A stretch of DNA of 64,000 bases from Gammaproteobacteria bacterium (lineage in GTDB: Bacteria; Pseudomonadota; Gammaproteobacteria; SZUA-229): assembly GCA_029881795.1 (NCBI GenBank), contig JAOULX010000013.1, forward strand, positions 1-64,000, read 5' to 3'. The notes under the pieces were generated by a model. The model had not been told where the DNA came from, searched no databases, and worked only from the letters and a program-made list of their open reading frames with translations. Positions within the stretch are counted from its first letter, which is position 1. Each line of letters begins with the position of its first letter. The translations under genes were made by a program, and so were the position numbers. Positions 1 to 6,055 of this stretch are shown piece by piece.

Positions 1-29
1 TTCGTTGTTAGAACAAATAACCACTTGAA

Positions 30-61
30 ATTTATACTGTTATTAGAGTAGCAGTATAAAT
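30..61. repeat. Inverted repeat upstream of first cassette
   Basis: Two perfect 10-base arms (30-39 and 52-61) enclose a 12-base loop. The repeat lies left of a second, longer inverted repeat and of the first small gene. It has no T-run, so it is not an obvious terminator. In this integron context it could belong to a degenerate attC or the edge of an attI site; a GTTAGAA core-like heptamer sits at 7-13. Function is not established. Confidence 0.5.
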
Positions 62-75
62 AAGAAATAAAGGAT

Positions 76-127
76 ATATGGCCATGGGCGTATTATATTA
101 CGGCCATGGCTATATACTTAACTGTTA
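76..127. repeat. Imperfect palindrome, possible degenerate attC
   Basis: Arms 76-92 and 99-115 pair at 15 of 17 positions around a 6-base loop and contain NcoI-like CCATGG cores. It is followed at 124-130 by GTTATGC, which resembles an integron R' core. An attC stem followed by its R' core just before a cassette gene is the expected layout, but no convincing R'' partner is visible upstream. The site is therefore only a candidate; the alternative is a simple leader hairpin for the gene at 152. Confidence 0.4.
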
Positions 128-151
128 TGCACATTATTAAAAGGAATGACA

Positions 152-565
152 ATGATAGGTAATAAGGAATTAAAATTTATTAAGCTTCTTTTTATCGTAG
201 CGGCATTGTGGAATCTAACCGGGGCTGGCTTTGGTTACTTTAATACGGCATATACCTTTCAGAATTTTTTTGGCCGAGAACTTTCTGATCCGCTATTCTA
301 TGATATTTACAAAGGAGCATGGGGTACAACTTTTGTATATTTTTTTGGATATCTGATCGTTGCTCATAATCCTTTGAAGCATTCAGGCATAGTCATCGTT
401 GGTGCCATTGGCAAGGTGGGCTTTGCAATTAAATTATTGCAGCTCTATCTGTCAGGTATTGCCAATTCAGTTGTACTCATCGTGGTAATCGGTGACTTAA
501 TATTTATGCTTTTGTTTATCTACTATTTCCTCATACTGTATAAGGCGAAGGAAGATATTATTTGA
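152..565 (+). CDS. Small four-helix membrane protein, cassette gene
   Basis: This 137-residue protein is almost entirely hydrophobic, with about four membrane helices (roughly residues 8-28, 48-68, 78-98 and 105-130). I do not recognise a family and assign no function. There are two in-frame ATGs at 146 and 152. The AAGGA ribosome site at 141-145 abuts the first and is correctly spaced (6 bases) for the second, so 152 is chosen. The gene is AT-rich and short, and is followed by an attC site (640-742), which fits an integron gene cassette. Small polytopic membrane proteins are common in such arrays. Confidence 0.7.
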   Translation: MIGNKELKFIKLLFIVAALWNLTGAGFGYFNTAYTFQNFFGRELSDPLFYDIYKGAWGTTFVYFFGYLIVAHNPLKHSGIVIVGAIGKVGFAIKLLQLYLSGIANSVVLIVVIGDLIFMLLFIYYFLILYKAKEDII

Positions 566-639
566 ATGAATTGCCAAGTCAGAACAAAATAAAAAAGTAG
601 AAAAAGAGCTATTATAAAAAATATGCTAAATTTAAAATT

Positions 640-742
640 GCATAACAAGTCATTTAAGTTCGCAGGTTTTTCAAACCTGCCGGACTCTCTAAAGCGGCGC
701 TTTGCTTGCTTTTTCGAGCCCGCTTAATTCAATCGTTAGATG
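640..742 (+). repeat. Integron attC recombination site 1
   Basis: The site opens with GCATAAC followed by AAG and closes with the R' core GTTAGAT (735-741), which fits the GTTRRRY consensus. Between them are nested inverted repeats: a strong hairpin with GCAGGTTT and AAACCTGC arms near 662-682, an outer AAGCGG/CCGCTT pair, and partly complementary L arms. Length (about 100 bases), the position after one small gene and directly before the next start (749), and repetition of the layout at 1401 and 2163 support an attC. Recombination would occur between G735 and T736. Confidence 0.8.
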
Positions 743-748
743 TAAAAA

Positions 749-1414
749 ATGAAAAAAATAGAATACTCCGTAATCATAATTATTTTAATCTTCGCATCAA
801 GAATAGCATGCGCAAGAACGTGTACGGAATGGAATTACTACGTGGAAAACCCACAATATTTCGTATTTTATGATGCTTTAGATAAATTAAAAGTTACTCA
901 GAATTTTGAGTCTCGTGGAGAGTATTTAAATTCTAAATTTGGTAACAATAATTGGAAAATCGAAAATAATCACTTTTCATATAATTTTCCATTAATAGTA
1001 GAGAATCCATATAGCTTTGATTTTTCTGAAAACCTAATAAATAAAAAAACAGAAAAACAAATAACAATAGTCGCTGAAATAATTATCGATAAAAAACATA
1101 TATATATTGAAATGCTTAATTTAAATGTTAATTCAAAAATTATGCACTATGAAACTAGATTTCAATTATTGATATCTGGTCAATCGAATTTATTCGTTAT
1201 CCATAAGCATAAAAATAGTGAAGTTTTGGTTTCAAATATGAAAAAGGTAAAGGTTTTAACTGGTGGCCCGTGTGGGCTCAGTGCTCGAAGTCAAGAGGAA
1301 GCTAAAAAGTTAAATACAGAGCTTTGTCGAAAAGCTAAAAAACATAAGAAAAAGAATCATCCTGCATGCGAAGCTGTTAAATTTATAGGTAATCACAATG
1401 CAGCTAACAAGTAG
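749..1414 (+). CDS. Secreted protein of unknown function, cassette gene
   Basis: The 221-residue product begins with a Sec signal peptide (lysines at 2-3, isoleucine-rich core, likely cleavage after Ala22). The mature part is asparagine- and lysine-rich and has a basic C-terminal tail with four cysteines (near 175, 193, 207 and the N-terminal Cys24-Cys26 region) that could form disulfides. I do not recognise a family. The stop codon lies inside the following attC site, a typical compact cassette arrangement. Very low GC compared with the chromosome beyond 7 kb points to acquisition. The gene has no own recognisable promoter and starts only 8 bases after attC site 1. Confidence 0.7.
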   Translation: MKKIEYSVIIIILIFASRIACARTCTEWNYYVENPQYFVFYDALDKLKVTQNFESRGEYLNSKFGNNNWKIENNHFSYNFPLIVENPYSFDFSENLINKKTEKQITIVAEIIIDKKHIYIEMLNLNVNSKIMHYETRFQLLISGQSNLFVIHKHKNSEVLVSNMKKVKVLTGGPCGLSARSQEEAKKLNTELCRKAKKHKKKNHPACEAVKFIGNHNAANK

Positions 1415-1482
1415 CTCAAGATCGTTCACTTTGTTCACTGGGACGCTCCTTACGTCGCGCCCCTTAGCAAAACGTTAGCATT
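1401..1482 (+). repeat. Integron attC recombination site 2
   Basis: The R'' element GCTAAC (1403-1408, followed by AAG) and R' element GTTAGC (1474-1479) are exact reverse complements. The region between holds further short inverted repeats, such as GGGACG against CGTC. It starts inside the end of the upstream gene and ends 9 bases before the next ATG at 1489. The same AACAAG...AACGTTAG frame recurs at site 3. Recombination would be expected between G1474 and T1475. Confidence 0.8.
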
Positions 1483-1488
1483 AAACAA

Positions 1489-2169
1489 ATGACTCTTAAA
1501 ACCAAACTTATACTAGCCGTGATTGTTGAGCTTATTTATATTATTGCCTCACGGTATGTTTCTTTTAATTTTCAAGATTTAACACCAAATTCAGAATATC
1601 TAAAGACTATATTAAGAGCATCTTCCGCAATCGCATATTACTATATATTTAAAGACTACATACTAAGCTTTAAGCCAACATATAAATTCATAAAATCACC
1701 ATTCTTTGTAATTTCAATTTTATTCTTTTTAGCTACGCCATTATTGGTAGGAAATCTCTACTTCATGGGAGACTACACGCGTATATTATTCGCTATAACA
1801 AGTATAATCGTAGGATTGCGAGAGGAGCTTGTGTTTCGTGTGTTAATACAGAATAGCTTAGAATCAAAGCTCGGGCCTGTTTATGCAATATTAATTACCA
1901 GTCTAATCTTTACGGTCTGGCATTTCGGAGCCATACCAAACAACTCATTTGCCTTTGGACAAGTGTTAATTAGTAGCATATTTCTTGGTCTTATATACTC
2001 AGCAACAAAGAGCTTCATTCTTGTTGTTTCACTACATGCTATATATGATGCTCTTTGGTCATTAACACCAATTTACACAAATGTAATAAATATAAATTGG
2101 GGTTTTGTACCACTAGTTTCTGCCATGCTTATTACTACCGCATGGTATTATAGGTTCAAAAGGTGCTAA
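1489..2169 (+). CDS. CPBP-family intramembrane metalloprotease, cassette gene
   Basis: This 226-residue polytopic membrane protein has the three conserved blocks of the CPBP (CAAX protease/bacteriocin-processing, formerly Abi) family: the EExxxR motif at 112-117, FxxxH at 141-145, and HxxxD at 183-187. In this family the glutamates and histidines form an intramembrane catalytic site; bacterial members cleave prenylated or peptide substrates or protect against bacteriocins. The natural substrate here cannot be told. The stop overlaps the next attC site and the start follows site 2 closely, so it is the payload of one cassette. Low GC agrees with acquisition. Confidence 0.85.
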   Translation: MTLKTKLILAVIVELIYIIASRYVSFNFQDLTPNSEYLKTILRASSAIAYYYIFKDYILSFKPTYKFIKSPFFVISILFFLATPLLVGNLYFMGDYTRILFAITSIIVGLREELVFRVLIQNSLESKLGPVYAILITSLIFTVWHFGAIPNNSFAFGQVLISSIFLGLIYSATKSFILVVSLHAIYDALWSLTPIYTNVININWGFVPLVSAMLITTAWYYRFKRC

Positions 2170-2227
2170 CAAGTCGTTCAAAATTGACCGCCAAACTGCG
2201 GCGGCAATTTAACTTTAACGTTAGGGC
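2163..2227 (+). repeat. Integron attC recombination site 3
   Basis: This is a compact site of about 65 bases. R'' is GTGCTAAC and AAG (2163-2173), R' is CGTTAGGG (2219-2226). The arms between them form a clear stem, AAATTG-CCGCC against GGCGG-CAATTT, with one unpaired base in the left arm. That extrahelical base is what attC sites use for strand choice. It overlaps the stop of the protease gene and sits 8 bases before the ATG at 2235. This is the best-formed attC in the window. Confidence 0.85.
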
Positions 2228-2234
2228 AAAAACC

Positions 2235-2576
2235 ATGAAGGAAGCAACCATTCAATTTCTCGATCCAGACCAGGCGTTGGTGGATATAGAAAAGAAAATG
2301 GATAGCATTCCAAATCCCGAACTATTTAATGACCCAAAACACCAAAAAATAACAGAGGCCTGGTGTGCATTTATGTTTGGTATTGGGTATAAAAAATATG
2401 TCAGTGATTGTGAGGTAGGTGTAAACGAAACAAATTCTAATACAGAGGCTGATTTTTATTTAAAAACAAAAGACAACATTTGGCCATTCCAGTTAACTGA
2501 AGTGCAGCACGCAGATAGAAAACGGGGCAAAGAATACAAAGAAATTCCAAACAAAACCTTAGCTAACCTTAGCTAG
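2235..2576 (+). CDS. Cassette gene, probably cut by transposable element
   Basis: The 113-residue product is soluble and charged, with no signal peptide; I do not recognise a family. It starts at ATG 2235, directly after attC site 3. Its stop codon TAG (2574-2576) is the first trinucleotide of the transposase-element end, so the original C-terminus and the cassette's own attC have probably been replaced. The last codons come from a tandem 10-base repeat (AACCTTAGCT at 2555-2564 and 2565-2574), which gives the ending TLANLS. The second half of the gene is not seen on the far side of the element. Confidence 0.55.
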   Translation: MKEATIQFLDPDQALVDIEKKMDSIPNPELFNDPKHQKITEAWCAFMFGIGYKKYVSDCEVGVNETNSNTEADFYLKTKDNIWPFQLTEVQHADRKRGKEYKEIPNKTLANLS

Positions 2577-2941
2577 ACACCCACCATAAATAAACCCCCA
2601 CCATAAATAAACCATAACTGAAAATCTCATTAATGACATCAGAAATTATCAATGGTTTTTTAATTTATAAAATAAGTAAGCAGGTTAAGCACATTTGTTA
2701 TAACTGCCCTAATTACAGGCGAGTGCATATCTCGGAACAGGCCGAATGACGTTAGTGTTATGTGGCGTTGTGTTTAAGGCAATCGTTCTCGACAGGGCGT
2801 TAAGCCAGGTGTTCGCAGGTAGCCTAATGTCTGGCAGGCTTGTTTGAGTTTGAAAGCGGAACCGACCAGGCCTTTGAAGTGGCTTTCAAAATGTTGTGTC
2901 ATGTAATGCCAGTGTTTGGCTTCGATATTAAGTCGTTCGAG
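2574..2941 (-). pseudogene. Truncated 3' copy of the transposase element
   Basis: This segment matches 2951-3301 over its whole length with scattered substitutions (a few percent) and one extra 17-base duplication near 2590. It carries the element end (TAGACACCCACC), about 180 bases of non-coding 3' sequence and the last roughly 56 codons of a transposase gene read on the minus strand, then breaks off at 2941. The divergence between the copies shows this is not a very recent tandem duplication. It is a remnant of a second insertion or an old rearrangement. Confidence 0.8.
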
Positions 2942-3133
2942 AGCCTTAACTAGACACCCACCATAAATAAACCATAACTGAAAATCTCATTAATGACATC
3001 AGAAATTCTCAATGCTTTTTGAATTTATAAAATAAGTATGCAGGTTATGCACATTTGTTATATCTGCTCTAATTACAGGCGAGTGCATATCTCGGAGCAG
3101 GCCGAATGACGTTAGTGTTATGTGGCGTTGTGT

Positions 3134-4129
3134 TTAAGGCAATCGTTCTCGACAGGGTGTTAAGCCCGGTGTTCGCAGGTAGCCTAATGTCTGGCAGGCT
3201 TGTTTAAGCTTGAATGCGGAACCGACCAGGCCTTTGAAGTGGCTTTCAAAATGTTGTGTCATGTAATGCCAGTGTTTGGCTTCGATATTAAGTCGTTCGA
3301 GTATTGGCGGTAGCTGGTTATTAATAAAGCCGCGCTTATCATCGCGCATTATTCTGCCTGTCCAGTCCAGCAGTTCCATGTAATCGGTTAAGCGAAACGG
3401 TAAGCCGTGTGGCATCTGTTTTCTTGGGTTTCCAACAAAAGGCATTAACGGTTTGCATTGTTGTTGGGGGTTGTTGGGTGTTGATGACGACCGGGCTTTG
3501 ACAATGCGTTTTTTAATTGATGTGTAATCTGAGGTCTCCGGTGTTTTAGCGATGGCTGCGCGCAGTGGGTTTAAATCAACATAGGCCATGCAGGCAGCTA
3601 GCGCACTGTCATCGAGTAAGGCCTGGCACTTGTAACGACCTTCCCAGAAGCGACCGCTGCAATCGTCTTCCTGATTTGCCTGGCGTGCAATCGCTTCATT
3701 CATACAGCGCATGAACCAACTGATATCCATAAGTCGAAGTCGCCATTGTTCAGCTTGTTTCGTTAACGCCACTAACTCGGACTTTGTTAGGATTTCACCG
3801 TTTGAAAACCGTTGAGATAGCAGTGAGCCTTTAAACAGCTGGTGCCAGAGTGTAATTACCTGCTCAAGATTTAATGATAGCGCCTGATCTTTATTGATAT
3901 GAAGCACGACATGGTAGTGATTTGACATCACCGCATAAGCACACAGATCGATACAAAAAATCTGCGCTAATTCAAGCAGTTTGTCTTCTAGCCACTGCCG
4001 GCGGTGCTCGAAACTATTACCGGTGAACGAATCCACGCCGCATAAAAAAGCCCGGCGTACACAGCGCGAAACACAATGATAAAAAGATGTGGCATCGAGT
4101 GATACCTGAGCATAACGAGGACGCGGCAT
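3134..4129 (-). CDS. REP-associated tyrosine transposase (Y1_Tnp family)
   Basis: The product is 331 residues, longer than the minimal IS200 type but normal for gammaproteobacterial RAYT-like proteins. The HUH metal-binding motif is His71-Tyr-His73 inside SNHYHVVLH. The candidate catalytic tyrosine is Tyr183 in the YVDLNPLRA motif, preceded by GRFWEGRYK (160-168). These enzymes cut and rejoin single-stranded DNA at hairpin sites. An AAGGAG ribosome site lies 6 bases upstream of the chosen ATG at 4129; an ATG at 4135 is too close to it. All key motifs are intact, so it may be active. The three hairpin repeats just upstream are its likely recognition sites. Confidence 0.85.
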   Translation of the reverse strand: MPRPRYAQVSLDATSFYHCVSRCVRRAFLCGVDSFTGNSFEHRRQWLEDKLLELAQIFCIDLCAYAVMSNHYHVVLHINKDQALSLNLEQVITLWHQLFKGSLLSQRFSNGEILTKSELVALTKQAEQWRLRLMDISWFMRCMNEAIARQANQEDDCSGRFWEGRYKCQALLDDSALAACMAYVDLNPLRAAIAKTPETSDYTSIKKRIVKARSSSTPNNPQQQCKPLMPFVGNPRKQMPHGLPFRLTDYMELLDWTGRIMRDDKRGFINNQLPPILERLNIEAKHWHYMTQHFESHFKGLVGSAFKLKQACQTLGYLRTPGLTPCRERLP

Positions 4130-4168
4130 GATCATCTCCTTGATCTGATAAATCCTGTTGAATAGGGT

Positions 4169-4274
4169 AATGCCTGTATGTATAGTAGTCAAATACTTAG
4201 TGTGGGTGTCCACACAGAACCAATGCCTGTATGTATAGTAGTCAAATACTTAGTGTGGGTGTCCACACAGAACC
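4169..4274. repeat. Perfect 53-bp tandem duplication
   Basis: Bases 4169-4221 and 4222-4274 are identical 53-base units lying head to tail upstream of the transposase gene. Each unit ends with one REP-like hairpin (GTGTGG GTGT CCACAC). Perfect identity suggests recent duplication, either by replication slippage or by transposase action at the element end. Confidence 0.9.
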
Positions 4275-4344
4275 GACAGCCTAATGTCTGGCAGGCTTGT
4301 TTGAGTTTGAAAGAAATACTTAGTGTGGGTGTCCACACAGAACC
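4191..4344. repeat. Three REP-like hairpin repeats at transposase left end
   Basis: A 31-base sequence occurs three times, at 4191-4221, 4244-4274 and 4314-4344. Each holds an imperfect palindrome with GTGTGG and CCACAC arms and a GTGT loop, followed by ACAGAACC. The intervals are 22 and 39 bases. The ACAGAACC tail is repeated twice more at about 4347-4367. REP-associated transposases act on hairpins of this size, so these are likely element ends or a small REP cluster. The intervals are pieces of the same element, which argues against a CRISPR array. Confidence 0.75.
4278..4313 (-). pseudogene. 36-bp transposase C-terminal fragment between REP repeats
   Basis: These 36 bases are identical to 2821-2856 of the truncated copy and differ at several positions from the intact gene (around 3181-3216). 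The fragment therefore came from the diverged copy A, not from the adjacent functional gene. It is sandwiched between the second and third hairpin repeat, showing a local rearrangement that joined a 3' coding fragment to the 5' element end. Confidence 0.8.
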
Positions 4345-4365
4345 GCACACAGAACCAACACAGAA

Positions 4366-4405
4366 CCATGAATATCTCCTTGATCAGTTAAATCCATGTT
4401 GTGTA
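4366..4405 (-). repeat. Degenerate copy of the transposase start/leader
   Basis: Read on the minus strand this resembles the transposase ribosome site and leader at 4126-4166: the ATCTCCTTGATC and AAATCC blocks are shared, with several substitutions and one inserted base. A third copy is at 5991-6033. It marks another older element end immediately right of the REP cluster. Confidence 0.6.
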
Positions 4406-4411
4406 GATTAA

Positions 4412-4559
4412 TTTATGTGAGTATTATTGTGAATAATTGAGTTGGGTGACCATGTAAGGACCTTATGTAAAATTAAAAGCAGATCTTTTGTCTAAGTGAA
4501 ACCAGGATAGCACTATCTGGATTTTAAAAAAATATAAGCATTACAAGAAAGGTGTTAAC
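4412..4559. other. Leader of the membrane gene at 4560
   Basis: No coding potential is seen. A short imperfect hairpin (CCAGGATAG against CTATCTGG) lies at 4502-4520, followed by a weak T/A stretch; it could be a relic terminator. An AAAGGTG ribosome site at about 4548-4554 serves the GTG start at 4560. Confidence 0.35.
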
Positions 4560-5940: not shown

Positions 5941-6055
5941 AATGATAAAAAGATGAGGTATCGAGTGATACCTGAGTATACGAGGGCGTGGCATGATCAT
6001 CTCCTTGATCTGATAAATCCTGTTGAGCAGGGTAATACCTGTATGTATAGTAATC
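5941..6055 (-). pseudogene. 5' remnant of a second transposase gene
   Basis: These 115 bases align with 4075-4190 of the intact element, with several substitutions and a one-base deletion. They contain the ribosome site, the start MPRPR and about 14 further codons. The deletion shifts the reading frame right after codon 5. The rest of the gene is missing and the homology stops just before where the hairpin repeat would begin, so this is a dead fragment. Confidence 0.85.

Follow-up and report, generated by a model that had tools for sequence, protein, structure and literature searches.

The first 2576 bases of the window, as we call the entire 64,000-nucleotide stretch of DNA analyzed here, very probably represent what is left of the front end of a small, decayed chromosomal integron, comprising an attI site, three complete cassettes and one truncated cassette. 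The window begins with the first base of contig C24 in a 2.9-Mb draft assembly (27 contigs, 97.5% complete). An integron cassette array had already been proposed for this region in the first-pass annotation, and the proposal is sustained by covariance model matches to attC sites as well as by the joining contig C3, whose sequence includes attI-like and integrase portions. Since the integrases on contigs C3, C11 and C21 are broken and no integrase was found with a second array on contig C7, we read the window array as a frozen remnant. The features of the region are as follows.

1..131, plus strand: attI-like site, crossover G124/T125 of GTTATGC, imperfect palindrome about 73-118
125..735, plus strand: cassette 1, from the TT of the attI junction to the crossover in attC1
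146..565, plus strand: cassette 1 gene, 139 aa, hydrophobic, without Pfam, NCBIfam or PADLOC match
640..741, plus strand: attC1, 44.8 bits, E 1.2e-10; R'' GCATAAC, L'' ATTTAAG, L' CTTAAT, R' GTTAGAT
749..1414, plus strand: cassette 2 gene, 221 aa, signal-peptide-like start (by eye), without family match
1402..1480, plus strand: attC2, 38.3 bits, E 1.1e-8; L'' GCTCAAG, L' CTTAGC
1489..2169, plus strand: cassette 3 gene, 226 aa, CPBP/Rce1-like membrane protease (PF02517 63.8 bits, cut-off 22.4)
2164..2226, plus strand: attC3, 35.4 bits, E 8.1e-8; L'' GTTCAAA, L' TTTAAC
2235..2576, plus strand: cassette 4 gene, truncated by the Y1 element at about 2576, stop codon at the element border
2576..4380, minus strand: Y1-transposase element, nested or tandem partial copies, ends GACACCC / GGGTGTC, outer limit set by eye
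3134-4213, minus strand: Y1 transposase gene (PF01797 23.6 bits, cut-off 23)

Detection and anatomy of the attC sites

Fourteen attC sites from other genomes within the family served to build the covariance model, which excluded all sequence of the own genome and had its pairing restricted to the R and L arms. These 14 sites were kept by eye out of 22 candidates near integrase genes; the remaining eight (L068:782, L079:1477 on both strands, L079:3019, L083:1477 on both strands, L105:22 and L105:657) were dropped for their coding-sequence look or for having no fitting fold. On both strands of the 64-kb window the model produced exactly three matches (E 1e-10 to 8e-8) and no fourth up to E=10. 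Their coordinates are within one or two bases of those of the attC-like sites that had been placed at 640-742, 1401-1482 and 2163-2227 in the first-pass annotation, which had named a lack of covariance hits as grounds for giving up its proposal; all three sites were matched. The same search of the own genome yielded nine matches up to E=10, consisting of the three in the window, five on C7 and one with an E-value of 2.58 that was taken as chance. As 150 of 603 first-look candidates were scored in this search, further weak attC sites may exist in the genome. In the controls, which together with the integrase region of Thiodictyon amounted to 27,467 bases, the model recovered three of the four attC sites expected between or behind the cassettes of a class 1 integron and matched nothing beyond these; on the Thiodictyon control, a plasmid region, there was no match beside the integron integrase. 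Rfam gave no match in the 64-kb window and none up to E=1 in 1-4500.

All three sites display the R''/R' and L''/L' arms and the unpaired L'' base that were used to judge attC membership, with a 7-base L'' pairing with a 6-base L' so that one L'' base stays unpaired. The next ATG follows 8 nt past the end of each site (749, 1489 and 2235), and the stops of genes 2 and 3 lie within attC (1412-1414 and 2167-2169). The annotated placement of starts and stops inside or right beside the sites therefore holds for two of the three stops, but not for that of gene 1 (565), which is located 75 nt ahead of attC1. Folding of the DNA strand opposite the genes gave z-scores of -3.17 (attC1), -0.73 (attC2) and -3.62 (attC3); the middle site thus folds little better than shuffles and is weak by energy alone.

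This poor fold of attC2 would fit the alternative of hairpins formed by chance in the gaps between ordinary AT-rich genes, as would two of the pattern counts. A rule-based finder for canonical attC anatomy, devised after the sites had been seen, reported the same three plus-strand sites and, away from these, a single minus-strand site in the window, a count within chance for the whole window (20 shuffles, mean 2.15 per strand, maximum 5), and a loose DNA pattern was uninformative in the own genome (130 matches vs 138 for the control). Within 1-2600 the rule-based count of three is above chance (200 shuffles, mean 0.21, maximum 2). The chance explanation is refuted in practice by the E-values of the covariance model and its lack of any further match in the window, and it is also contradicted by the location of the sites between consecutive genes with a constant distance to the next ATG and by the adjacent attI-like sequence and integrase remnant; we give it virtually no credence. 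An initial version of the finder with compulsory R''/R' pairing recovered only the third of the three sites, since the R' of a site inside an array is contributed by the following cassette, and this demand was removed in the second version.

Integron crossover takes place between the G and the TT of GTTRRRY when attI recombines with a folded attC, and the first bases of a cassette should consequently pair with R'' of its own attC. This end-matching test, conceived after the sequences had been seen, covered the nine cassettes of the own genome (three in the window, five on C7 and one on C11), which matched their own R'' in 8, 5, 7, 8, 9, 9, 9, 8 and 5 bases. These lengths add up to 68, against 45.2 when cassettes and sites are paired at random (p 5e-6). 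Restricted to the window's three cassettes the test gave p 0.17; here cassette 2 matches just 5 bases, and the opening bases of cassette 1 (GTTATGCA) show an 8-base complementarity to the R'' of its own attC. Each cassette would have been inserted by the integron integrase through this reaction between attI and folded attC, with crossover at G/TT, and the matching ends would be its footprint.

Cassette genes and payloads

The four plus-strand genes set apart by the attC sites are AT-rich, in keeping with their first description, with GC contents of 0.287-0.368 vs 0.45 for 7.8-64 kb. The fourth is cut short: its cassette ends at GACACCC, the terminus of the Y1 element, and the covariance model found no attC after this gene in the 64-kb window. 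The payloads had been described as mostly unrecognised, and indeed cassettes 1, 2 and 4 had no match in Pfam, NCBIfam or PADLOC, the third encoding a CPBP-type protease (PF02517) with the motifs EELVFR, FTVWH and HAIYD. Among 369 genomes of the class, cassette 1 had matches in three, namely the own genome and two more with identities of 27% and 24%, cassette 4 occurred in the own genome only (1/369), and cassettes 1, 2 and 4 were absent from the plasmid collection searched. None of the four window cassettes had a family match to resistance genes. A consensus scan detected no sigma-70-like promoter in 1-131 and nine promoter-like sites in 1-2700, below the shuffle mean of 12.7. Expression of the cassettes, if any, would need a promoter beyond those identified in the sequence.

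The attI-like site and the joining contig

The first 131 bases of the window recur at two places, the end of C3 (127/127 bases) and, beside intI, C11:1156-1284 (99%). C24 and C11 part right after GTTATG, at the cassette border, and at the single base separating the C11 copy from the window copy the window has the C3 type. The region is also identical in 65 of 90 positions to the sequence upstream of intI in G035, a genome of the same genus. Its position, the copies and the likeness to G035 support, by sequence comparison, an attI beside intI and the first cassette, which most likely occupies about window 1-130. The first-pass annotation had expected attI to the left of base 1 and in this respect was probably mistaken.

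The 127 bases shared by the start of C24 and the end of C3 (C3 end 64744 = window 127) are matched by an overlap of exactly the same length between C13 and C19, an unrelated contig pair. These two equal overlaps suggest an assembly k-mer of 127, which makes it probable that C3 is joined to C24. C3 was examined in view of the warning that in draft assemblies an integron may be divided among several contigs, which inflates the counts of attC clusters lacking an integrase, termed CALIN (passages of PMC9024848 considered here), and the common end sequence allows the array, which sits at a contig edge, to be tied to attI and an integrase remnant. C3 itself stops at GTTA, three bases beyond the crossover point; in a graph with k=127 this could reflect another first cassette in some cells, or a mere repeat.

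Integrase remnants

Going away from the array, C3 carries the attI-like region, an intI piece, the end of a Y1 element and glycolate-oxidase-like genes (named by protein look). The integrase piece (C3:64321-64425) lies some 200 bases beyond the attI-like region and consists of about 35 codons corresponding to residues 211-245 of the L126 IntI frame. The integrase anticipated to the left of the window is therefore present as a fragment on the joining contig, but not as an integrase gene.

By its sequence, the C11 copy keeps the catalytic part of the integrase and lacks the start and the N-terminal part. It reaches the C-terminus (TIGR02249 355.5 bits, cut-off 265, profile 72-315 of 315), is 47.2% identical to IntI1 of the class 1 integron, and its closest named relative among the matches listed was a gammaproteobacterial MAG (68%), in a collection that may not include the own genome. 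Residue 211 of the L126 frame is where integrase homology begins on both C3 and C11, and from this start to the cassette border the two contigs have 424 of 426 bases in common. Sixteen bases identical between the own genome and G035, whose integrase has 326 aa, are positioned 43 nt before the integrase start codon in G035 and 11 nt before the beginning of integrase homology in the own genome, a spacing which indicates that the start and N-terminal part of intI were lost in both the C3 and C11 copies. The frames of the close IntI relatives L126, L129 and L131 are open for about 140 residues upstream of the usual start, and this N-terminal stretch appears conserved.

A third remnant, truncated at both ends (C21:132309-132878; L004, L060; NF011946 positions 117-305), is flanked by an mnmE-like gene on one side and by an IS3-like element with a pair of genes on the other (names by look), and no attC was matched in the 19 kb searched there with the covariance model. 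Two integrase searches of the own genome returned only the C11 and C21 pieces plus two weaker matches, which were taken to be XerC and XerD. A full-length integron integrase was thus not found in this draft assembly, and the array does not rank as a complete integron. What remains of intI at the two attI copies is the roughly 35 codons on C3, cut by the Y1 element, and the C11 copy without its N-terminal part; with no full-length integrase in the assembly, the cassettes would now be fixed in place. The incompleteness of the assembly means that an intact integrase could be missing from the contigs, and the splitting of integrons in draft assemblies described in the passages of PMC9024848 considered here likewise limits the claim of no intact integrase.

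We consider it unlikely that the integron is still active, with cassettes being moved by a full-length integrase encoded in unassembled DNA or present in part of the population. The incomplete assembly, the end of C3 at a point where different cassettes would diverge, and the different first cassettes that C3/C24 and C11 bear at near-identical attI copies would all agree with such activity. However, only broken integron integrases were obtained from the own genome, homology between attI copies must stop where non-homologous cassettes start, whatever the cause, and the 127-base overlap is also seen at the unrelated pair C13/C19. It is still less likely that the two near-identical attI copies swapped cassettes after the loss of the intI N-terminal part, using another integrase in trans, in an array that is still changing in part of the population.

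Y1 elements and probable residence of the array

The transposase of the window element scored 39.8 bits with NF047646, below the cut-off of 80, and Y1-element sequence is also present at window 5941-6055 (nested or partial) and adjoins both the C3 integrase piece and the C11 cassette. Fourteen matches to Y1 elements were grouped into about eight places of the genome, three of which abut integron pieces; as these places may not be independent, a preference for integron DNA is left as a remark. The C11 cassette has an attC that breaks off directly behind R'' and L'' (C11:539-559, L059) and is followed by four tandem copies of the Y1 end.

Of 54 genomes in the family, 29, the own genome among them, had integron integrases at E <= 1e-50, representing 10 of 14 genera, and the NF011946 cut-off was exceeded by none of the integrases of these 29 genomes. 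G035 and G036 have other genes, and no attC match of the covariance model, in the DNA upstream of a gene that by its look is miaB-like; the 3.2 kb available for G037 at this locus were not enough for comparison. Continuous non-cassette synteny through 1-2600, which had been put forward as evidence against an array, was therefore not encountered. The array and the C3 flank were not conserved in the relatives compared, and the best genus relatives of the C3 glycolate-oxidase-like genes reach just 56-59%.

There is a small but real chance that the locus was imported, for example by way of a mobile integron or of Y1 elements on its two sides, and is not an old resident. Y1-element sequence on both borders, the other genes at the miaB-like locus of G035 and G036 and the distant relatives of the glycolate-oxidase-like genes are what one would expect of an import, but the wide occurrence of integron integrases in the family, the resemblance of the attI-like region to that of G035 and the lack of resistance-gene families among the four cassettes argue for residence. 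The earlier designation as a sedentary chromosomal integron agrees with the distribution of integrases in the family, but not with the absence of the array at the miaB-like locus of G035 and G036; judged from these sequences, the integron is likely, though not proven, to be sedentary.

Comparison with known integrons

Decayed integrons of this sort are already documented, for instance in Xanthomonas, where cassette arrays are kept while intI is truncated, deleted or disrupted (this and the following points according to the passages of PMC12444791 considered here). The window array resembles these in lacking a working intI, in its poorly characterised payloads and in its Y1 elements, which parallel the transposases around truncated intI in one pathovar. 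It differs in belonging to another lineage, in the occurrence of several pieces and two near-identical attI copies in one genome, and in its location, as Xanthomonas intI is mostly found downstream of ilvD. Arrays that lack an integrase are frequent enough to have been named: CALIN, proposed as degraded integrons (PMC9024848, in the passages considered), have at least two attC sites and no complete integrase beside them, which also describes the three attC sites of the window; unlike a CALIN, the window array still has its attI-like site, and part of an integrase survives on the joining contig. The attC anatomy is the same as in the class 1 integron used as control (L222, E. coli plasmid p009_A), which differs in its complete integrase, plasmid location and resistance payloads. 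The present array adds a gammaproteobacterial lineage with several decaying integron pieces in one draft genome, together with payloads without known family, and leaves the understanding of integron function and decay unchanged.

A second array on C7

The five attC sites on C7 (C7:56378-63164, L123:6379-13165, minus strand; 23.4 to 45.3 bits) are located on a contig without a tyrosine-recombinase match, and this array fits a CALIN more simply than that of the window. Three of its five cassettes had PADLOC matches, as follows.

887 aa, minus-strand array: PHP-AAA protein, Ppl 1.9e-25
589 aa, minus-strand array: AAA-TOPRIM OLD-like protein, AriA 3.6e-23
352 aa, minus-strand array: candidate PDC-S11, 3.5e-28

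These matches point to a possible role of the C7 array as a phage-defence store.
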